DNA of 64,000 bases from Clostridiales bacterium PH28_bin88. Lineage in GTDB: Bacteria; Bacillota; PH28-bin88. Both the position numbers and the translations under genes were made by a program. The notes under the pieces were generated by a model. It did not search any database and was not told the DNA's origin. It saw nothing but the letters and a program-made list of their open reading frames with translations. Positions 38,942 to 50,413 of this stretch are shown piece by piece. Within the stretch, counting starts at the first letter, position 1. The number at the start of each line of letters is the position of its first letter. The stretch spans positions 62,001-126,000 of the forward strand of contig LAKY01000071.1 of the NCBI GenBank assembly GCA_000987045.1. Reading direction: 5' to 3'.

Positions 38942-40096
38942 ATGAGCGAGGGTAACTACGTCATTTCCCGGGAGGACTGGTCGCTTCACCGGAAAGGGTA
39001 TCTCGATCAGCAACGGCACCAGGAAAAAGTCAGAGACGCCATCAAAAGAAACCTCCCGGACATCGTCAGCGAAGAGAGCATCATCATGTCTGAGGGGAAG
39101 AAGATCATCAAGATACCCATTCGTTCCCTGGATGAATACCGCTTCCGTTACAACTTTAACAAGCAGAAACACGCCGGCCAGGGAGACGGCAAGAGCAAAC
39201 AGGGAGACGTGCTGGGATCCGACGCGGCTGCCGCCCCCGGGAAAGGCAAGGGGGCCGGCGAGGAGCCGGGGGTGGACTACTACGAGGCGGAAATTACCCT
39301 GGATGAACTGGCGGACCTGATCTTTGAGGACCTGAGCCTGCCCAACCTGCAGCAAAAAAGGAAACAGCAGGTGGAATCCACGTCGATCCGTTTCAACGAC
39401 GTGCGGAAACACGGCTTGATGGGTAACATCGATAAAAAACGGACCATCCTGGAAAACCTCAAACGGAATGCTCTCCACAGCGATCCGGGTATTCACGGTA
39501 TTAAGCCGGAAGACCTGCGTTTTAAGACCTGGGAGGAAACCGTCAAGTGGGATTCCAGCGCCGTGGTGCTGGCCATGATGGATACCTCCGGGTCCATGGG
39601 CACCTTTGAGAAGTATATCGCCCGCAGTTTTTTCTTCTGGATGGTCCGGTTCCTGCGCACCAAGTACAAGCACGTGCAGATCGTCTTCCTCGCCCACCAC
39701 ACCAAAGCAAAAGAGGTAACCGAAGAGGAATTCTTCACTAAAGGCGAAAGCGGCGGGACCAAGTGCTCGTCTGTCTACCAGCTTGCCCTGGACATTATCC
39801 AGGAGCGTTTCCCACCCCTGGACTACAACCTGTACCCCTTCCATTTTTCCGACGGGGATAACCTGCCTTCCGACAACGACCTCTGCGTGAAACTGGTGCA
39901 GAAGCTCCTGGAGATTTGCAACGTGTTCGGCTACGGAGAAATCATCAACCCCTATTACCGCAGCAGCACCCTGATGAACTCGTATAAAAAGATCAAAGAC
40001 CCCAAGTTCGTCTCGGTCACCATCAAAGACAAGTCCGAAGTCTACCCCGCCCTCAAAACCTTCTTCACCAAGCGCGACATCACCGGAGACGCTTAG
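38942..40096 (+). CDS. yhbH: YhbH/YeaH sporulation protein (VWA-like)
   Basis: Protein of 384 residues of the YeaH/YhbH (DUF444) family, associated with PrkA and SpoVR. A charged N-terminal half with a Gly/Lys-rich linker (about 80-105) is followed by a von Willebrand A-like domain with the metal-site motif [14 protein letters not shown] near residue 216 and SGGTKCSS near residue 270. ATG 38942 behind GGAGG is chosen. Its last codons and terminator are duplicated at 44.41 kb, marking the edge of the agr island. Confidence 0.93.
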
Positions 40097-40213
40097 AATT
40101 ACCACGCTGTTATGGGGAAACAAGTAAAGAAATAACTAGGTCCTGGCAAGTCACCCCGCCTTTAATGGCAGGGGTGATTTTTTTCCCAGCGATGGCAACT
40201 TTTAAAAATCATC
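40077..40213 (+). repeat. Direct repeat copy 1: yhbH 3' end plus terminator
   Basis: About 137 bp starting in the last codons of yhbH (CATCACCGGAGACG...) and running past its terminator into CAGCGATGGCAACTTTT. A copy of roughly 80 percent identity by eye lies at 44411-44548. The repeat includes coding sequence of yhbH, so the second copy derives from this locus or a close relative. Confidence 0.75.
40152..40184 (+). terminator. yhbH terminator
   Basis: CACCCCGCC (40152-40160) pairs with GGCAGGGGTG (40167-40176) with one bulged A, followed by ATTTTTTT. Confidence 0.85.
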
Positions 40214-40301
40214 ATCAAATTATCAATGGCCCTGTTTATATCTCTGGCTTTTCAAACGATTTTTTACATCAAAATCGGTAATGAAGAAAGCAAGGATTTA
40301 A
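40208..40301 (+). pseudogene. agrB remnant (internal deletion)
   Basis: Sixty bases (ATCATCATCAAATTATCAATGGCC...) align with codons about 37-57 of the intact agrB at 47177. They are joined after a deletion of about 370 bp to the last codons (AATGAAGAAAGCAAGGATTTAA) of agrB. It cannot encode a working protein. The flanks continue to match the intact copy downstream. Confidence 0.8.
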
Positions 40302-40310
40302 TCCTTGCAT

Positions 40311-40375
40311 TTTCGTTCCCCAAAATGACACTTTCGTTCCCAAACTCACATTCCTTGTCCCTGAAGTTGTAGAAT
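40311..40375 (+). promoter_or_regulatory. LytTR-type direct-repeat operator and promoter of agrD copy 1
   Basis: TTTCGTTCC occurs at 40311-40319 and 40332-40340 (21-bp period), with a degenerate third copy TCCTTGTCC at 40352-40360. TAGAAT at 40370-40375 is a good -10 without a good -35. Repeats of 9 bp with 12-bp spacers are the hallmark of LytTR regulator sites. The arrangement is the same as at 47768. Confidence 0.7.
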
Positions 40376-40405
40376 GAAGTTGAAAAATTCCAGGAGGTGA
40401 GACGG

Positions 40406-40540
40406 ATGAGCAAGATCAGAGCCGGTTTAGCGTTGCCCGCCCTTTACGCGGTGTTAGCCTTTGTGGCTACATTGAACACGGTATCGCCGAACTGCATTGG
40501 CTGGTTCTATCAACCCAGAAAACCCGAGCGCTATCAGTAG
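40406..40540 (+). CDS. agrD: AgrD-type cyclic autoinducer peptide precursor, copy 1
   Basis: A 44-residue precursor behind an ideal AGGAGGTGA. A basic-hydrophobic leader (MSKIRAGLALPALYAVLAFV) precedes the signal region NTVSPNCIGWFYQPRKPE. Clostridial AgrD peptides show SPxC-xxx-F/Y then YQPExP; a thiolactone of CIGWF is predicted. It differs from copy 2 only at residues 2 and 15 and in the tail. Its own agrB is a remnant, so processing would need the AgrB at 47177. Confidence 0.85.
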   Translation: MSKIRAGLALPALYAVLAFVATLNTVSPNCIGWFYQPRKPERYQ

Positions 40541-40581
40541 AAGTTGTCTTGAAAGGTGTTCAATATTAGGAGGTGATTCCC

Positions 40582-40602
40582 ATGTTTTTTGTATTTCTGT
40601 AG
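40582..40602 (+). CDS. Possible hexapeptide mini-ORF (MFFVFL)
   Basis: ATG followed by TTT TTT GTA TTT CTG TAG, preceded 6 bp upstream by a perfect AGGAGGTGA. The ribosome site is as strong as that of agrD. The product would be a very hydrophobic hexapeptide, recalling short pheromone or leader peptides. It lies 42 bp after agrD copy 1 and 89 bp before the M23 peptidase gene. It may be fortuitous. Confidence 0.35.
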   Translation: MFFVFL

Positions 40603-40690
40603 AAGCGTTTACACGGTTATAACCACAAAAAAACGTAGGCTAAAAATGTGGTCTTTTAAAAAATAAGGTGAATTTGAAAGGAGAATGATT

Positions 40691-41980
40691 ATGAAAAAAC
40701 TAATTCCAATTCTACTAATACTAACCACAGCACTGTTATTTACCCTAGCTGCTCCAACCCTTGGCTTAGACAACAACCCTAAATTCGAAGAGTTTTACAC
40801 GGAAGAATTCAACTCAATGACAGCCGACATGTTTGACTTCATTTTTAAGATTAAACATCCAGGCAAAGGCGCCAAAATCTTAGTTGAGTATAAAAACATG
40901 AATGAGGAAGAATTTAAAACAATCGACATCAATACTGACACACCGGGCGAAGAACTCCAACTAAGCATTCCCAAAGAAGCAACCTCTGAACCTGGCTTTG
41001 AATACCGGCTTAAGCTGGTATTGCCTAACGGCAAAGAAGTAATCAGTAAAGTCTTTAAAGTTATTACCAAAGTAGACCCCTTAAAAGAGTCTGCTGGTGG
41101 TGAGGTAGGAAACCCTTATTACTTCTACGACATCGATAGGTATAATGGTTACCTGCCCGATGATACCTATGTTTCGCCAGGAATAGCCCGGAGTCCCTTC
41201 GGCACTACTACTTCTGAAACCTTCCCGGGAGTTACCAGTAAATTCGCAGAACTCAGAACGCTAACACCTACTCCTCACAATGGCACTGACTTCGGCGTAG
41301 AAAATGGAACCCCGATCCACGCAGTAATTGCAGGTAAAGTTGCATTTGTGAACCCTACTTGGGACCCCGCTAACCCAAAGGGCGCCGGAAGATATGTAAT
41401 CCTAGGTCATGGGGTACAAGATGCATATGGATACTACCCATACTATTCCCGGTACCTGCACTTAAGCGAAGTTGCAACTGGATTGACTGTAGGAACTTCT
41501 GTATCTAAAGGCCAGCAAATAGGTAAGTCTGGTGACTCTGGCGCTGCTGGAGCATATCACCTGGACTTTGGCTTCCTGGTAAAATGGGGCGATACTGAAG
41601 ACTTATTTATGCCTCCTGAACGGTTCTTTAATACCACCAACTGGAACTCTGAAAAAGACTTGGGATTTATCCAAGTGCCCGTGTGGAACGCTTCTCAAAA
41701 CAGTATCGACGTAAACGTCTATCCCAAGGGAACCAATGATGGATCAACCGTTAATGTATCAATTATGGTTAAACCTACCACCTCATCTACATGGACTGAA
41801 CATACTATGACAGGCGTGGGCAACAACACTTACAGGTTTAACCCATCTTCCTATGCTGGACAAACTATCGACTATTACATTAAGGTTATTCGCCCTGGCT
41901 ATGATCCTACAAAATACATCACTAGGCCTTATTACAAAACTAACCAGGCACCACTCTCTTTCTACCGGCGAACCATCTAG
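40691..41980 (+). CDS. Secreted M23-family metallopeptidase-like protein, copy 1
   Basis: Exported protein of about 429 residues with a Sec signal peptide (KKLIPILLILTTALLFTLAAPTLG), an N-terminal beta domain (about 30-130), a lysostaphin/LytM-type M23 domain with HNGTDFG near residue 199 and AYHLDFGF near residue 292, and a C-terminal beta domain. M23 zinc sites need HxxxD and HxH; the second motif reads H-L-D here, so one ligand His is replaced by Asp and activity is doubtful. AT-rich codon use matches the island. The gene lies downstream of agrD copy 1. Confidence 0.8.
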   Translation: MKKLIPILLILTTALLFTLAAPTLGLDNNPKFEEFYTEEFNSMTADMFDFIFKIKHPGKGAKILVEYKNMNEEEFKTIDINTDTPGEELQLSIPKEATSEPGFEYRLKLVLPNGKEVISKVFKVITKVDPLKESAGGEVGNPYYFYDIDRYNGYLPDDTYVSPGIARSPFGTTTSETFPGVTSKFAELRTLTPTPHNGTDFGVENGTPIHAVIAGKVAFVNPTWDPANPKGAGRYVILGHGVQDAYGYYPYYSRYLHLSEVATGLTVGTSVSKGQQIGKSGDSGAAGAYHLDFGFLVKWGDTEDLFMPPERFFNTTNWNSEKDLGFIQVPVWNASQNSIDVNVYPKGTNDGSTVNVSIMVKPTTSSTWTEHTMTGVGNNTYRFNPSSYAGQTIDYYIKVIRPGYDPTKYITRPYYKTNQAPLSFYRRTI

Positions 41981-42036: not shown

Positions 42037-42310
42037 TGGTGGCACCCCCGCCCTGCATGGGTAGTAACTCTTTAGGGTGAAAGTCCCGAAAAGATAGAGA
42101 TTGACAGTACCAACCGGTTATCCTAAGGCAATGGTGTCTGTGGCCCAGAATCTGAGAGGAAGGAAGCTGGCGCCAAATTCCCAACCTGAGGTACAGGAAC
42201 CGCATCTGAGGCTGTTACATCCAGGAGAAACTGCCATACAAGTTAAAGCCCAATACTGTCAAGGGATGTAGCGGTAGATCTGCTGGTAAGCTCTTACACA
42301 TCTCGGAAAT
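42037..42310 (+). mobile_element. Degenerate group II intron 5' region
   Basis: Gene-free DNA with phrases typical of group II intron domain I in clostridia: AGGGTGAAAGTCCC near 42076, GGCAATGGTGTCTGTGG near 42127, AATCTGAGAGGAAGGAAGC near 42149 and CCTGAGGTACAGGAACC near 42184. No maturase ORF follows. The assignment rests on remembered sequence style; a covariance search (Rfam group II) would decide. Confidence 0.5.
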
Positions 42311-44027: not shown

Positions 44028-44410
44028 ACCGGCAATAGAGTAAGGGATGAAAGAGCCCCACGTGAAAGGAGTAGCTGCACCATCACGGCCCCGAGTCATG
44101 CGCGGGCAGCCGCGAGGCGGCACATGAAGCGTTGACAGGGGAAAACGCGGGCCAGCCATTGAGCTCCGAAATCACCCTTTCCGGGGGCCGACCACGTGAA
44201 CCGATTGGGAAGGCAACACGGTATAACGGCGATACTGCAGCGAGCCTATACCGGCCCCGCGGAGTCAAAGACCCTGAGCATGCGTGGACACTCTGTGTTC
44301 GGGAACCGGGAGAACTCAGCGGCATCCGTCGGCTGATATGTTGGCGGTTCGGTCAGGGAAGTCCCGTGGCCGCAATCCTGACATGCATGTTGCCGAGAAG
44401 TCAGATCGGG
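43990..44410 (+). mobile_element. GC-rich noncoding segment, probable group II intron remnant
   Basis: About 420 bp markedly richer in G+C than its flanks, without a convincing gene. Phrases such as CATTGAGCTCCGAAATCACC, GGGAAGGCAACACGG, CCCCGCGGAGTCAAAGACC and GGGAACCGGGAGAACTC recall the 5' ribozyme domains of another group II intron class. No intron-encoded protein or 3' domain V is present. The call rests on memory of family sequence. Confidence 0.45.
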
Positions 44411-44548
44411 GCATCACCGGAGACGATTTAGAATTAACCCCCCTTTTATGGGGAAACAAGTTAAGAAAGAACTAAGATCCGGCAAGTTACCCCCGCCGTT
44501 AATGGCAGGGGTGATTTTTTTTGCCAGCGATGGGAACTTTTTAGGGTT
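44411..44548 (+). repeat. Direct repeat copy 2: yhbH 3' end plus terminator
   Basis: CATCACCGGAGACG followed by TTTAGAATTA, ATGGGGAAACAAGT, the hairpin TACCCCCGCC...GGCAGGGGTGA with T-tract (44489-44521), and CCAGCGATGGGAACTTTT, collinear with 40077-40213. The upstream part of yhbH is absent. Confidence 0.75.
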
Positions 44549-44924: not shown

Positions 44925-45033
44925 ATGTTTGAAAAAGGTAAACCTAGCGAAAGCTGGGGGCACAAAGCCACGGGTCTAAGGTAGTTTACTACTATGATCG
45001 CCGGGTTGCCGCAACATCAAGTACTGAACCCGG
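44925..45033 (+). ncRNA. Cyclic di-GMP-I (GEMM) riboswitch
   Basis: The GEMM core is clear: GGTAAACC, a P2 hairpin capped by GCGAAAGC, GGGGGCACAAAGCCACGGG, the tetraloop-receptor halves TCTAAG and TATGA in P3, and the 3' strand GCCGGGTTGCC. ATGTT (44925-44929) and AACAT (45013-45017) close P1. A rival pairing CCGGGTT (45001-45007) with AACCCGG (45027-45033) would disrupt the aptamer and is a likely expression platform. It precedes the LytTR regulator by about 90 nt. Confidence 0.88.
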
Positions 45034-45120
45034 TCCAATCGGCTTGTGCAGATAGGAACGGCTTCTTTGTGTCCAACGCTCTCCGGCCAACTTCCAAGAT
45101 GACAAAGTGGGGAGGTGGAT

Positions 45121-45849
45121 ATGATGGCATTAAAGGTAGCGGTAACAGAAGACGACTCTCTTTTCCGAAAGGAGTTGGTTGAACAGATTTCTTCGGTCCC
45201 GGGATTGGAAGTGCACTATTCAACCGACAGCGGCGAGGACTTGCTGAGAGTATTGGACAAGATAAGCCCGGAAATAGTCGTTCTTGACATATCCCTGCCG
45301 GGAATATCCGGTATAGACGTCGCCAAAACCGTCCGCCAAAAACTGCCTCACACTGAAATAATCTTTGTGACGGCGCATGAAGATTACATTAAGGAAGCGG
45401 TAAAGCTTTATGCAACGGACTATATTTCAAAACCCCTGGATACCGCCAGACTTAAGCAGACGTTGAACAGGATCAAGCAAAACCTTTCTTCACCAGAAAA
45501 ACTGCTTGAGTTAAAGACAGGGAAAGGAATCCAGGTCACCAGACCACAGGATATTTGCGTAGTGGAGGCGATTAAAAAGAAGACGATCATACACACGGCA
45601 ACGAAAACATTTACTTCTGACCATTCAATTATGGAGATTGAAGCACAGTTGGATCAGGGCATGTTTTATCGAACCAGCAGGTCGTACCTGGTAAACCTGT
45701 CAAAAATAAAAGCTATTAAACCCGTATCCAGGACTTCTTTCGAAATCCTGTTTGTAGATAAGGACTGCAAGGCGTATCTATCGAAATCCGTGTACACCGG
45801 CTTCAGGAGTAAACTTAAGAAACTCTCCGCGGGAGGGGGACAGCCATGA
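45121..45849 (+). CDS. LytTR-family response regulator (AgrA-like)
   Basis: Regulator of about 242 residues: receiver (about 4-120; VAVTEDDSLFRKEL, phospho-Asp in EIVVLDISLPGISG near 55, Lys in DYISKPLDTARLK near 105) and a LytTR DNA-binding domain (about 135-235; FYRTSRSYLVNLSKIKAI). ATG 45121 or 45124 follows GGGGAGGTG. It overlaps the next gene by 4 bp. In agr systems AgrA activates agrBD; here the direct repeats before both agrD genes are the likely targets. Its mRNA leader carries the c-di-GMP riboswitch. Confidence 0.9.
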   Translation: MMALKVAVTEDDSLFRKELVEQISSVPGLEVHYSTDSGEDLLRVLDKISPEIVVLDISLPGISGIDVAKTVRQKLPHTEIIFVTAHEDYIKEAVKLYATDYISKPLDTARLKQTLNRIKQNLSSPEKLLELKTGKGIQVTRPQDICVVEAIKKKTIIHTATKTFTSDHSIMEIEAQLDQGMFYRTSRSYLVNLSKIKAIKPVSRTSFEILFVDKDCKAYLSKSVYTGFRSKLKKLSAGGGQP

Positions 45850-46313
45850 CTATTACGGAAACCCTTCTGTTTTCCGTTCCCGAAGCGATAGTCATCACCT
45901 GGCTCGCTTTTTCTTTGTCAACCGCCAAAAGTAGGGGTGGAATATTCAAAATAGGCGTCATCCTGGGGGTAGCATCGCATTTTTTCAGGCTGTATACCGG
46001 CAGTTACATAGTAAACGTGATTCTCTACACCGTTCTATTATGGCTCCTCTTTTCATTGTACCACCGGGGACACGTGCTGGAAAACCTGGTAGCCGTTGTG
46101 ATGGCTGTCTCCATCTATTTAACGATTGAGTTTATAAACATTACAGTCCTACAAACATTTTTCCATGTAAACTTGACCGTTTTATCCGAGAATCTACTGC
46201 TGCGTTTGCGGAGTTTTTTTCCTCAAGTGTTAGTGACAGCCTTGCTGTCCTTGATATTAACTCACTTCGACCTTGGCTTGTTCCAGAAAACAAGAGAGGT
46301 AACAGAGGAATGA
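45846..46313 (+). CDS. Five-TM membrane protein, probable sensor part of split AgrC
   Basis: Hydrophobic protein of 155 residues with about five membrane helices and no soluble domain. It overlaps the response regulator before it and the kinase after it by 4 bp each (ATGA), so all three are coupled. AgrC kinases normally carry six or so N-terminal helices fused to the kinase; here the kinase has only two helices, so this protein may supply the missing peptide-sensing part. That is inference; I see no motif. Confidence 0.65.
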   Translation: MTITETLLFSVPEAIVITWLAFSLSTAKSRGGIFKIGVILGVASHFFRLYTGSYIVNVILYTVLLWLLFSLYHRGHVLENLVAVVMAVSIYLTIEFINITVLQTFFHVNLTVLSENLLLRLRSFFPQVLVTALLSLILTHFDLGLFQKTREVTEE

Positions 46314-47173
46314 GAAGAGACCCTTATAAAGCGGCCATAGTCCTTTTTGTAGCACAACTAATCTTACTGGCGATCCTGATTAATAACAGTTTAATGAAAA
46401 AATACAACTTCTACCAACCTGCTAATGGAGAGCGTTATGAGTTGTTGCTGGGAATATTGCTCTTTGCCCTAAATATAGCCGCCATTTTCACTATCAGATA
46501 TCTTGATATCAGCGGGCAGGAAGGACAACAGCACCGGTTGATGGCTTTAAAGTTTAAGCACTTAGCCGAGCAAAACCGCATCTACCGCCAACATCAACAT
46601 GACTTTAAAAACCACTTGAATATAATGGTTTCTCTCTTTCGGCAAAAAGAACTGGGAAAACTTGAAGAATACCTGTTCTCATATATAGCGGAAATCAACG
46701 ATACTTCGTTCAAGGTGGCAACCGGGATAGCGGAAATCGACATATTGATCAGTGTAAAAATAGATCAAGCAAAGAGCAAAAGTATTCCAGTTGATTTCCG
46801 ATGCAGAACATCACTTAAAAGTGGCAAGGGTAATGTTCTACTCCTTGTGTCGATCTTGAGCAACGTATTGGATAATGCCATTGAAGCATGCGAAAGATTA
46901 ACAAACGATTTAAGCCCCCAAATTTGCATCCACATTGACGAGGATGCGCTGGATTATCTTTTTAAGGTGACCAACACTCTTGGACCAGATATGATCGCTT
47001 CGCCGCAAATACTCTTTCAAGAAGGGTTCACGACAAAAGAAGGTGAGGGTAGAGGGGAAGGCCTGGCCATAGTAAAACGTCTGGTCACTAAACTGGGCGG
47101 AGAGGTTAGGATAGACGCCAAAGACAGTTTTGTCGTAAGTATTGAGATACCAAAACATCAACTGGGGGCGTAA
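46310..47173 (+). CDS. AgrC-like GHKL sensor histidine kinase with short membrane part
   Basis: Kinase of 287 residues: two helices (about 8-25 and 45-63), a phosphoacceptor motif HQHDFKNHLNIMVSLFRQKE near residue 96 (His-Asp-Phe-Lys-Asn-His, typical of AgrC/peptide quorum kinases), and a GHKL ATPase domain with SNVLDNAIEACERL near residue 185 and GEGLAIVKRLVTKLGG near residue 247. It lacks the polytopic sensor usually fused to such kinases, which the preceding gene may provide. agrB follows immediately. Confidence 0.88.
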   Translation: MRRDPYKAAIVLFVAQLILLAILINNSLMKKYNFYQPANGERYELLLGILLFALNIAAIFTIRYLDISGQEGQQHRLMALKFKHLAEQNRIYRQHQHDFKNHLNIMVSLFRQKELGKLEEYLFSYIAEINDTSFKVATGIAEIDILISVKIDQAKSKSIPVDFRCRTSLKSGKGNVLLLVSILSNVLDNAIEACERLTNDLSPQICIHIDEDALDYLFKVTNTLGPDMIASPQILFQEGFTTKEGEGRGEGLAIVKRLVTKLGGEVRIDAKDSFVVSIEIPKHQLGA

Positions 47174-47176
47174 TGG

Positions 47177-47758
47177 TTGTTCAATTTGGAAAAGACTTCG
47201 GGAAAAATAGTTCACGTCTTGTTTCGCAACACAACGCTCAGCCCGGAGGAAAAGGCCAAGGCAGAATACGGATTAAGCGTCCTATTAGGTATCATCATCG
47301 AATTATCAATGGCCACTTTGATTTCACTGGCTATTGACACGGTTTTTTATATAATACTCATCATGCTTTCGGCATTATCACTGAGGACTTTGACCGGCGG
47401 AGCCCACTGCTCCAGTTACGATAGATGCCTGGTTTTTACTCTCGGCTACTTCTTGCCCCCGTCGGTGTTAGCTAAAACTCTTCATATCCACTTCGAGTCG
47501 GAATTGCTCTTTTTGTTAAGTGTAGCGCTCATGGCAACAACGCTCCCGATAATCCTGCAAAGTAAGCCGTACTCTCGATCCATTTTATTCCCTTTAGCAT
47601 TGACAGCGGGAGCGTCATTGTTGGTTAATCAAAGCACCATGGCGGCGGTCTGGCTTTCTGTCGCTTTGGGTCTGGCACTTCAGGCTTTCGTTTTAACCAA
47701 AGTGGGTAAACAATTTGTACAAATCGCAGATACAGTAATGAAGAAAGCAAGGATTTAA
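47177..47758 (+). CDS. agrB: AgrB-type accessory gene regulator (autoinducer-processing protease)
   Basis: Integral membrane cysteine peptidase of 193 residues that cleaves AgrD and forms the cyclic peptide. The catalytic pair is seen in LRTLTGGAHCSSYDRC: His near residue 75 and Cys seven positions on, the spacing of AgrB His77/Cys84. About five hydrophobic helices follow. The TTG start lies 3 bp after the kinase stop. A scar of a second agrB occurs at 40208. agrD follows after 104 bp with its own promoter. Confidence 0.92.
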   Translation: MFNLEKTSGKIVHVLFRNTTLSPEEKAKAEYGLSVLLGIIIELSMATLISLAIDTVFYIILIMLSALSLRTLTGGAHCSSYDRCLVFTLGYFLPPSVLAKTLHIHFESELLFLLSVALMATTLPIILQSKPYSRSILFPLALTAGASLLVNQSTMAAVWLSVALGLALQAFVLTKVGKQFVQIADTVMKKARI

Positions 47759-47767
47759 TCCTTGCAT

Positions 47768-47832
47768 TTTCGTTCCCCAAAATGACACTTTCGTTCCCAA
47801 AATCACACTTCTTGTCCCTGAAGTTGTAGAAT
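47768..47832 (+). promoter_or_regulatory. LytTR-type direct-repeat operator and promoter of agrD copy 2
   Basis: TTTCGTTCC at 47768-47776 and 47789-47797 (21-bp period) with a degenerate third copy TTCTTGTCC at 47809-47817, then TAGAAT at 47827-47832 as -10. There is no good -35, so activation by the bound regulator is expected. It is nearly identical to 40311-40375. Confidence 0.72.
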
Positions 47833-47862
47833 GAAGTTGAAAAATTCCAGGAGGTGAGACGG

Positions 47863-47994
47863 ATGAACAAGATCAGAGCCGGTTTAGCGTTGCCCGCCCT
47901 TTACGTAGTGTTAGCCTTTGTGGCTACATTGAACACGGTGTCGCCGAACTGCATTGGATGGTTCTATGAACCGAAAAAAACCGAACGCAAATAG
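47863..47994 (+). CDS. agrD: AgrD-type cyclic autoinducer peptide precursor, copy 2
   Basis: A 43-residue precursor with the same AGGAGGTGA ribosome site and leader as copy 1 (MNKIRAGLALPALYVVLAFV). The core is NTVSPNCIGWFYEPKKTE. The predicted ring CIGWF is identical to copy 1, while the tail changes from YQPRKPERYQ to YEPKKTERK. Hence both genes should yield the same signal if only the ring is kept, or two signals if tail residues are retained. It sits next to the intact agrB. Confidence 0.88.
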   Translation: MNKIRAGLALPALYVVLAFVATLNTVSPNCIGWFYEPKKTERK

Positions 47995-48267
47995 TGCAAG
48001 CGTCTATCCCGGAAGAACCATTGCTGTAAGTGGGCAGCTTTGGAAAAGACAAGAAGAAAAAACCGTGGTAGATGAAGGAGAAATCATGTACCGCAAAAAA
48101 GTATTCAGAGAAGCAGTATGAACGAGAGACTGATAACTGTTTGGTGACGTAGATAATTTCCCGGATAGTTTTAATATGATCCCGTTTCCAATGTAATAAT
48201 GCAATAAGGAAAAAAGCAACATAGAATAATAATTTATAGGGGTAATTTGGAAGAAAGGGGTACATTA

Positions 48268-49449
48268 ATGCGAAAATATCTTTTTACCGGAACAGTTTTA
48301 CTTATTACTGTTTTGGCCTTCAGCTTGGGCCGAGTTGGCGCCAAAAACATCTTTACAAAAGTACTCGATTCTTCGTTCAGAGGAATGCAAGGAGGCGTCA
48401 TGATAAAGGAAAGTGGAGGAGTCGGAGAAAGAGTAATTAACGGGGCCTATATTCTTGTGGAGGGCAAGCTAAAAGAAACGCCAACAGATACTGTTTCTAT
48501 AACAATTAATAAAGGAGAAGATAACGAATACAGCTTTGATCTAGTCAAAGTTGTCAGAAACGGGAAAGTTGTTTCTGTTAGACCTGGAAAAGAAGGGGGC
48601 CCTCTTCACTTTAAAGCAGGCATTAATAAGGTAATTTTCACTGATCAGTATCACAAAAGTTTATGGGTAGCCGACATTGCAGATCTTGAACCCAGAAACA
48701 TTCAACCCGAACTAGTAGGTGACATATCTCAGAAAAATCTATTTGCTAAGAAAGAGGATTTAGCTAGACAAGGAAAAGATACAGACGAGTACATTCTGTA
48801 CTGGGTAAGTGCCCCCATACTTTCGCCTGATGAAAACAAAATAGTTTTTGCCTCCAACCGGCTTGGATATCCTTCAAACTTTGATTTTTCTTTATGGTTG
48901 ACGGACTTACAGGGCAATACGCAGTTGCTGGTGGACGAAACAGACAAAGGATCTGTAATACCAGTGGCCTGGGCAAATAGCGATAAAGTTGTCTACCAAG
49001 GACCATCCGGTGAGTTAAAATATGTCAACGTGCATACAGGCGAAACGAAAATAGTGGTTGATGAGAGGGTGGCGATTAGTAGTTCTTCTCCAGATGGCAA
49101 ATATATAATCTATAATCCTGTCAGGGGGGGGATCATCCAACCCGAACTCCATGTACTAGATACTGAAAAAGACAATTCTTACTTAGTGACTCTTCCAGAA
49201 GGATACAAGACTAACGGATTCTACGGCTGGGGTACTGATAATGAGAGTGTTGCGTTTTACGTTCAGGATTTTAACGGGAATATAAAGCTGATGATTATGC
49301 ATTGTTCTTCAGTGGAGGTAATCTCTCTGGACGCTCCAGAAAACACCAGTTTTGATGAGGATGTTATTCCTTTCTGGTCCGATGGGAGAGTCCTTTTTTC
49401 CGCAGGAGGAAAGTTGTATTCCTATGGTGAGGTGAACAAGTATGAATAA
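48268..49449 (+). CDS. Exported TolB-like beta-propeller protein
   Basis: Protein of about 393 residues with an N-terminal signal or anchor (RKYLFTGTVLLITVLAFSLG), a beta domain (about 30-120) and propeller blades such as APILSPDENKIVFASNRLGYPS near residue 190 and ISSSSPDGKYIIYNPVRGG near residue 270. ATG 48268 follows AGAAAGGGG and is preferred to TTG 48247. It overlaps the M23 peptidase gene by 8 bp, so the two are coupled and may act together at the cell surface. It follows agrD copy 2 by 273 bp. Confidence 0.75.
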   Translation: MRKYLFTGTVLLITVLAFSLGRVGAKNIFTKVLDSSFRGMQGGVMIKESGGVGERVINGAYILVEGKLKETPTDTVSITINKGEDNEYSFDLVKVVRNGKVVSVRPGKEGGPLHFKAGINKVIFTDQYHKSLWVADIADLEPRNIQPELVGDISQKNLFAKKEDLARQGKDTDEYILYWVSAPILSPDENKIVFASNRLGYPSNFDFSLWLTDLQGNTQLLVDETDKGSVIPVAWANSDKVVYQGPSGELKYVNVHTGETKIVVDERVAISSSSPDGKYIIYNPVRGGIIQPELHVLDTEKDNSYLVTLPEGYKTNGFYGWGTDNESVAFYVQDFNGNIKLMIMHCSSVEVISLDAPENTSFDEDVIPFWSDGRVLFSAGGKLYSYGEVNKYE

Positions 49450-50413
49450 GAGAATTTTAAGCCTGTTTATTATAACATTGTTGCTTTCTTTTATACCGGG
49501 ATTAGCCTATGGATATACGCCGTATTACGACGAAAAATTTTACTATACAGGCCCATATTATGGTTCGCCATATTTCGCTACCCTATATTCGCCTTTTCGT
49601 GATGCCTCGTCTGGAGACGATGTCTATCCTGGGGTGACCAGTAAGTATAATAACCCGCGTCACACTACTTCACCTCATTCGGGTGTAGACTTTACAGCCG
49701 CCGTAAATACTAATGTTTATCCGTTGAGTAGTGGCAAAGTTGAGTATGTTTACACTGAAATTCATGATGATTTCGGCAAGTTTGTGATCATAAGGCTCGA
49801 CGTTAATCGTGATGGTGTCAATGACAATGTGTACGCACGATATGCCCATCTAGACTCAATAAACGTTAGCGTGGGGCAAAATGTTACCAGGAGCACGTTA
49901 ATAGGAAAATCTGGCAAAACGGGAACAAATGCAGCACACTTGCATGTTGACATGAAGGATAATAACAGTTCTCCCACAGGGGTTACCCACAGCTTGCCCT
50001 GGCACCTCTATTACAACAACAGAACCGATTGGAATTATGGGAAAGACTTGGATTGGCTCTGCCAACATTCTATAACTAATAGACGAACTTTTGCAGTTTA
50101 CTGTTACGGCAAAACAGATGGATCGCAAAAAATTGTTCCATCTGAGGTTAAAATCTGGATAAGGCGGGCTTACACATCAGATGCTTGGACCGGCTATGTA
50201 ATGAGCCATGCCGGCTCGGATCAATACACAGTAACAGTACCTTCAGCAGATTTTCCTGATGGTACCACCGTTGAATACTTTTTCAGTGGCAAACGGGGAG
50301 ATGTATCAGAGAGTACCAATTGTCCCTTTGGTTTGTACCCTGCAAAGTTTAAAGCACCTGCTATACCCCCCGACTCTACAAAATCATTTGCACGATACTC
50401 TCATATTTTATAA
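49442..50413 (+). CDS. Secreted M23-family metallopeptidase, copy 2
   Basis: Exported peptidoglycan endopeptidase-like protein of 323 residues: signal peptide (ILSLFIITLLLSFIPGLAYG), M23 domain with the complete zinc site (HSGVDF near residue 78 and AAHLHVD near residue 164), and a C-terminal beta domain. It shares with copy 1 the pre-catalytic block PGVTSK(Y/F) and the overall plan, but keeps the HxH that copy 1 lacks. It is translationally coupled to the propeller gene. It is likely under agr control, by position. Confidence 0.87.
   Translation: MNKRILSLFIITLLLSFIPGLAYGYTPYYDEKFYYTGPYYGSPYFATLYSPFRDASSGDDVYPGVTSKYNNPRHTTSPHSGVDFTAAVNTNVYPLSSGKVEYVYTEIHDDFGKFVIIRLDVNRDGVNDNVYARYAHLDSINVSVGQNVTRSTLIGKSGKTGTNAAHLHVDMKDNNSSPTGVTHSLPWHLYYNNRTDWNYGKDLDWLCQHSITNRRTFAVYCYGKTDGSQKIVPSEVKIWIRRAYTSDAWTGYVMSHAGSDQYTVTVPSADFPDGTTVEYFFSGKRGDVSESTNCPFGLYPAKFKAPAIPPDSTKSFARYSHIL

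Follow-up and report, generated by a model that had tools for sequence, protein, structure and literature searches.

A c-di-GMP-I riboswitch in the leader of an agr quorum sensing operon and its recurrence in other families of the phylum

The agr quorum sensing operon in the window, by which we mean the whole stretch of 64,000 nucleotides from Clostridiales bacterium PH28_bin88 that was analysed here, is headed by an intact c-di-GMP-I riboswitch aptamer, and the same linkage recurs in other families of the phylum. We put the probability that c-di-GMP controls this operon through the leader riboswitch at about 0.8. Computed here are the aptamer, the operon, their recurrence, the covariation of the aptamer helices, the terminators of the relatives and the direct repeats. 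c-di-GMP and agr peptide sensing are two of the main Gram-positive routes to the decision between settling and dispersal, and the known links between them involve a number of proteins. With a riboswitch in the agr leader the link would be direct, from one small molecule to one operon. Given the recurrence, the common “settle or swim” signal probably sets the point at which these bacteria take a count of their neighbours. The elements of the operon, all on the forward strand, are as follows.

44927-45013, forward: c-di-GMP-I (GEMM-I) riboswitch aptamer (Rfam RF01051; covariation with agr-linked relatives)
45121-45849 (ATG at 45121 or 45124), forward: agrA-type LytTR response regulator (Pfam Response_reg PF00072 and LytTR PF04397)
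45846-46313, forward: membrane protein, taken to be the receptor half of a split AgrC (hhalign 96% to the protein of relatives)
46310-47173, forward: GHKL histidine kinase, kinase half of AgrC (Pfam HATPase_c_5; weak similarity to the Staphylococcus AgrC model)
47177-47758, forward: agrB, peptide-processing protease (Pfam AgrB PF04647, 67 bits)
47765-47826, forward: 21-bp direct repeats before agrD, candidate LytTR binding sites
47863-47994, forward: agrD, cyclic-peptide precursor with core NCIGWFYEP (TIGR04223, 20.5 bits against a cut-off of 19)
48247-49449, forward: exported beta-propeller-like protein (PD40/TolB matches)
49442-50413, forward: exported M23 peptidase (Pfam Peptidase_M23, 66.8 bits)

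When the whole window was scanned with cmscan, RF01051 matched the forward strand at 44927-45013 with 87.6 bits against a gathering cut-off of 35 bits (model positions 1-87 of 87, E 5.7e-16), full length and with no pair flagged as non-standard. A GAAA tetraloop caps P2, and a receptor-like CUAAG...UAUG is present, which bears out the original prediction of a GEMM aptamer with a GNRA tetraloop and its receptor at this position. That the aptamer precedes an AgrA-like gene was also correct, as were the coordinates given; the aptamer ends 107-110 nt before the gene, which starts at either ATG behind GGGGAGG (45109-45115), with a GTG at 45115 that overlaps this Shine-Dalgarno sequence. Among the 17 c-di-GMP-I aptamers in the source genome (5.0 Mb in 99 contigs) the window copy ranks second by score. 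It shares with the known RF01051 riboswitches (Vibrio Vc2, C. difficile Cd1/Cdi-1-3) its full length, all helices, tetraloop, receptor and location in a 5' leader, but differs from them in that the genes downstream are an agr operon and in that its leader lacks a terminator, while the agr-linked relatives do have terminators and resemble known c-di-GMP-I OFF switches. The aptamer is an ordinary member of its class, and what is new is the target genes and the recurrence.

The operon runs from the riboswitch through the LytTR regulator, the two AgrC halves and AgrB, and AgrD comes next, preceded by direct repeats of its own. No curated family matched the 155-aa membrane protein encoded between the regulator and kinase genes; since it matches the protein of relatives, and since at locus L091 the kinase carries this domain at its own N-terminus (99.4%, hhalign), we take it for the receptor half of an AgrC that would be encoded by two genes, the other being the GHKL kinase. 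Alignment with relatives showed that the GGxHC motif of AgrB (here GGAHC) and the downstream Cys are conserved, and the secreted cyclic peptide derived from AgrD is the predicted activator of the kinase. AgrB, AgrD, a GHKL kinase and a LytTR regulator share one locus here as in the agr systems of S. aureus (agrBDCA) and C. difficile (agrACDB); unlike these, the window has separate receptor and kinase genes, repeats belonging to agrD and a riboswitch leading the operon. In riboswitch-linked relatives (AgrD precursors at L090:818-946, L115:8204-8338, L119:8256-8390 and L140:8340-8474, compared with 47863-47994 in the window) a Ser takes the place of the window's Cys in the predicted ring (for example ASLVTWYQPE versus NCIGWFYEP), which suggests lactone instead of thiolactone peptides.

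LytTR regulators bind direct repeats of the kind found before agrD, and this repeat pair occurs only twice in the entire source genome, each time preceding an agrD. The second copy belongs to what remains of a duplicated agr locus, a relic found by self-comparison of the window.

40078-41980, forward: duplicated-agr-locus relic
40308-40344, forward: repeats of the relic
40406-40540, forward: second agrD
40685-41980, forward: M23 peptidase, related to that of the operon

Pieces of the relic match 44412-44541 (87%), 47291-47349 (83%) and 47735-47988 (95%), and it lacks a riboswitch, agrA, the kinase and most of agrB. Between the relic and the agr operon, just upstream of the latter, lie two matches to group II intron structures (42146-42298, RF02001, 54.3 bits; 44050-44274, RF02005, 158.5 bits).

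AgrB was searched for with two queries in 399 genomes of the phylum, and 114 loci around the matches were scanned with a covariance model built from the aptamers of the source genome, part of them also with Rfam. Besides the window, a canonical aptamer was found in the agr operon at eight loci among about 115 agrB loci scanned, in the leader at seven of the eight, where fewer than 0.1 further loci would be expected by chance. As rough figures, the genomes being related, P is ~6e-15 for eight leader cases and ~8e-9 for five. The carriers belong to the window's own family (f1) and to families f12, f47, f54 and f75, and they span three orders, with f47 and f75 in one order and f12 and f54 in another. 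It is because of this independent recurrence in other families that the adjacency can be taken as an evolved linkage and not as an isolated case, and the predicted placement of the aptamer in an agr operon leader holds. Since families with different platforms share it, the arrangement also lends itself to comparing how gating of quorum sensing by a second messenger arose. The further loci are arranged as follows, L115 and L116 being near-identical contigs of one genome.

L091 (order nearest to that of the window): aptamer, LytTR regulator, receptor kinase, M23 pieces, 364-aa lipoprotein-like protein, AgrB
L115, L116, L118 and L119: aptamer, receptor, kinase, AgrB, AgrD, regulator
L105: aptamer, receptor, kinase, AgrB, regulator
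L166: RF03167 variant, receptor, kinase, AgrB, regulator, M23
L090: agrB and agrD, then aptamer, then a recombinase-bearing insertion

Across the seven distinct agr-linked aptamers the helices show strong covariation, as the known structure demands, with 91.6% of cells paired and 25 two-sided changes, a level reached by none of 500 shuffles. A close AgrA homologue, and with it a close relative of the window operon, is absent from the window's family and class, which comprise only three genomes, and a profile search of genome contigs with the AgrA-type alignment returned generic response regulators only. At L118:899-982 (minus strand; genome G086) a second riboswitch copy with identical aptamer sequence, followed by the identical terminator, lies downstream of the same agr operon and has no clear target gene.

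Half-aptamers were seen ahead of agr operons in family f14 (L140:5490-5559, L147:16718-16787 and, on the minus strand, L144 7133-7199 and 13917-13988). They keep the P1/P2 half including the GAAA hairpin, after which repeats with a 21-nt period replace P3. The matches are weak (23-32 bits), stayed below threshold in Rfam and were not counted as riboswitches. Judged from their sequence they are either vestigial riboswitches or a variant, and as remnants they would show that riboswitch control can be lost.

In all distinct agr-linked relatives a terminator-like hairpin follows immediately 3' of the aptamer. At L090, L091, L115, L118 and L119 part of this terminator could instead form pairs with the P1 3' strand (CUGCCGC, CUGCCG or CCAGGU); L105 is less clear. 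In most relatives the putative antiterminator would use the P1 3' strand of the aptamer, which is the usual layout for ligand-favoured termination and predicts repression by c-di-GMP. This layout fits the class I c-di-GMP riboswitches of C. difficile, which act mostly as OFF switches (PMC6200980), and we regard an OFF sign in the relatives as fairly probable. At three loci (L119:6145-6186, L115:6086-6148 and L166:6336-6395) 21-bp LytTR-type direct repeats lie past the riboswitch terminator and ahead of the first agr gene. These suggest a second, autoregulated promoter, through which some of the expression at these loci could escape the riboswitch.

The leader in the window is different in that neither a terminator nor a consensus promoter was found when they were sought there. 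Three pairings were considered.

45000-45034, forward: competing helix of 8 bp between the aptamer P1 3' strand (45000-45007) and 45027-45034, dG -12.8
44959-45073, forward: alternative helix of 9 bp between the aptamer core (44959-44967) and 45065-45073, from constrained folding
45067-45124, forward: predicted hairpin pairing the Shine-Dalgarno sequence and the agrA start, from folding

A helix between 45001-45007 and 45027-45033 that competes with the aptamer had been predicted; it exists, is one pair longer (GCCGGGUU at 45000-45007 pairing with AACCCGGU at 45027-45034, -12.8 kcal/mol) and uses the P1 3' strand, but 26 of 200 shuffled leaders match or beat it, and by itself it is not significant and only suggestive. 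The alternative helix involves the 5' arm of the predicted start-site hairpin (45065-45073) and is a weak candidate for a switch element in the folding models; shuffled leaders often give helices as long. The start-site hairpin does not exceed shuffles in stability (z -0.25), and folding leaves the Shine-Dalgarno sequence largely paired across all modelled states of the window leader, the aptamer state included. The modelled fold of the window therefore leaves the sign of control undecided, and the missing terminator and promoter together with the hairpin and shuffle values count against control in the window itself.

The mechanism that we infer, from ligand binding, platform and direction to regulator targets and outputs, would run as follows. 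The intracellular level of c-di-GMP would set, via the leader riboswitch, the amounts of regulator, receptor-kinase and AgrB, and these amounts would decide whether peptide autoinduction is open to the cell. Once phosphorylated, the LytTR regulator would act on the direct repeats before agrD and before its second copy, which would close the loop and switch on the exported M23 peptidases. As the likeliest direction, high c-di-GMP, typical of the sessile state, would keep agr down, through transcription termination in the relatives and more probably through translation initiation in the window species, where pairing of 44959-44967 with the 5' arm of the hairpin as an alternative fold would give translational OFF control. 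For the window species we give the OFF sign odds a little better than even.

One could argue that the riboswitch merely happens to lie next to agr and serves another transcript, given that the genome holds 17 such aptamers and that at L090 the aptamer follows agrD. In the window, though, it is on the same strand as the regulator gene, about 110 nt from it and with no intervening gene, and the seven other leader cases stand against an expectation below 0.1; chance adjacency is scarcely credible and was rejected on these counts. The expected ligand, judged from sequence, is c-di-GMP. According to the alignments the G at the position that presumably selects c-di-GMP over cGAMP is kept in 17 of 17 aptamers of the source genome and is invariant among the agr-linked ones. 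The genome has 11 GGDEF matches above the curated cut-off, and its other 16 c-di-GMP-I aptamers lie ahead of flagellar rod, FapA, secretion protein F, chemotaxis-receptor, sigma-factor and HD-GYP genes, so that the agr operon joins what appears to be an ordinary c-di-GMP regulon. Another cyclic dinucleotide such as 3',3'-cGAMP would have precedent in the GEMM-Ib riboswitches of Geobacter, which bind cGAMP (PMC6456294), and the variant RF03167 is present at L166, but with the discriminating G kept in both sets of aptamers and with a genome rich in ordinary GGDEF and HD-GYP domains we judge it very unlikely.

Control by c-di-GMP could also have the opposite sign. The c-di-GMP-I aptamer class comprises both ON and OFF versions, and in an ON switch the ligand would free the agrA start, so that high c-di-GMP would promote quorum sensing. 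The terminator seen in the relatives is missing from the window, whose modelled folds are compatible with either sign, and both forms of the switch are known (a title cited in PMC11218506). Yet the distinct relatives all place their terminator as OFF switches do, the class I riboswitches of C. difficile are mostly OFF (PMC6200980) and the modelled aptamer state in the window keeps the Shine-Dalgarno sequence paired, which makes an ON switch rather unlikely. The same lack of a convincing platform, together with the half-aptamer remnants before f14 agr operons and the duplication and deletion in the neighbourhood, would also suit an intact aptamer that no longer controls agr in the window species and is decaying in a duplicated, partly deleted region. 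An aptamer of 87.6 bits with no broken pair, second best of 17, and a recurrence far in excess of chance argue against such decay, which we consider improbable.

According to the original prediction such a combination is not known to have been described, and a literature text search, with most subscription papers beyond its reach, likewise turned up neither a riboswitch described in an agr leader nor an agrBD-GGDEF operon. In C. difficile, AgrA changes the transcripts of EAL/GGDEF genes and that of the flagellar leader in which Cd1 lies (PMC3754575); agr and c-di-GMP influence each other there, as they would here, but no agr-leader riboswitch is reported for that network. The Listeria SAM riboswitch SreA has been proposed to influence agr expression in trans, agr not being located downstream of a SAM riboswitch (PMC7221448), whereas the riboswitch in the window heads the operon itself.

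A reverse link, from peptide to second messenger, is suggested by agrBD operons that contain a GGDEF/HD-GYP enzyme. The source genome carries such a locus (L089, contig C42, 5464-8504) with the order receptor, AgrB, a 44-aa AgrD-like peptide and a membrane protein with GGDEF and HD-GYP domains, an apparent operon that we regard as a candidate peptide-to-c-di-GMP signalling module. If the enzyme senses the peptide, peptide and c-di-GMP signalling would be wired both ways. A two-way circuit in the phylum, in which the cyclic peptide of the GGDEF/HD-GYP agr locus would set c-di-GMP and c-di-GMP would gate a second, classical agr via the riboswitch, is a tentative proposal to which we give somewhat less than even odds. 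Neighbourhoods of AgrB and GGDEF/HD-GYP like that of L089 were found at about 17 other loci, including L122, L131, L132, L139, L141, L146, L148 and L152 as well as L155, L156, L168, L169, L170, L176, L177 and L183. The same receptor-like membrane protein is usually also present, and each of the 16 loci that were inspected has an AgrD-like ORF separating AgrB from the enzyme. Of the seven genomes in which a riboswitch-linked agr operon was found, five (the window genome and four of six others) also carry an AgrB-GGDEF/HD-GYP locus, a co-occurrence with a hypergeometric probability of 0.007, although four of the five share an order.
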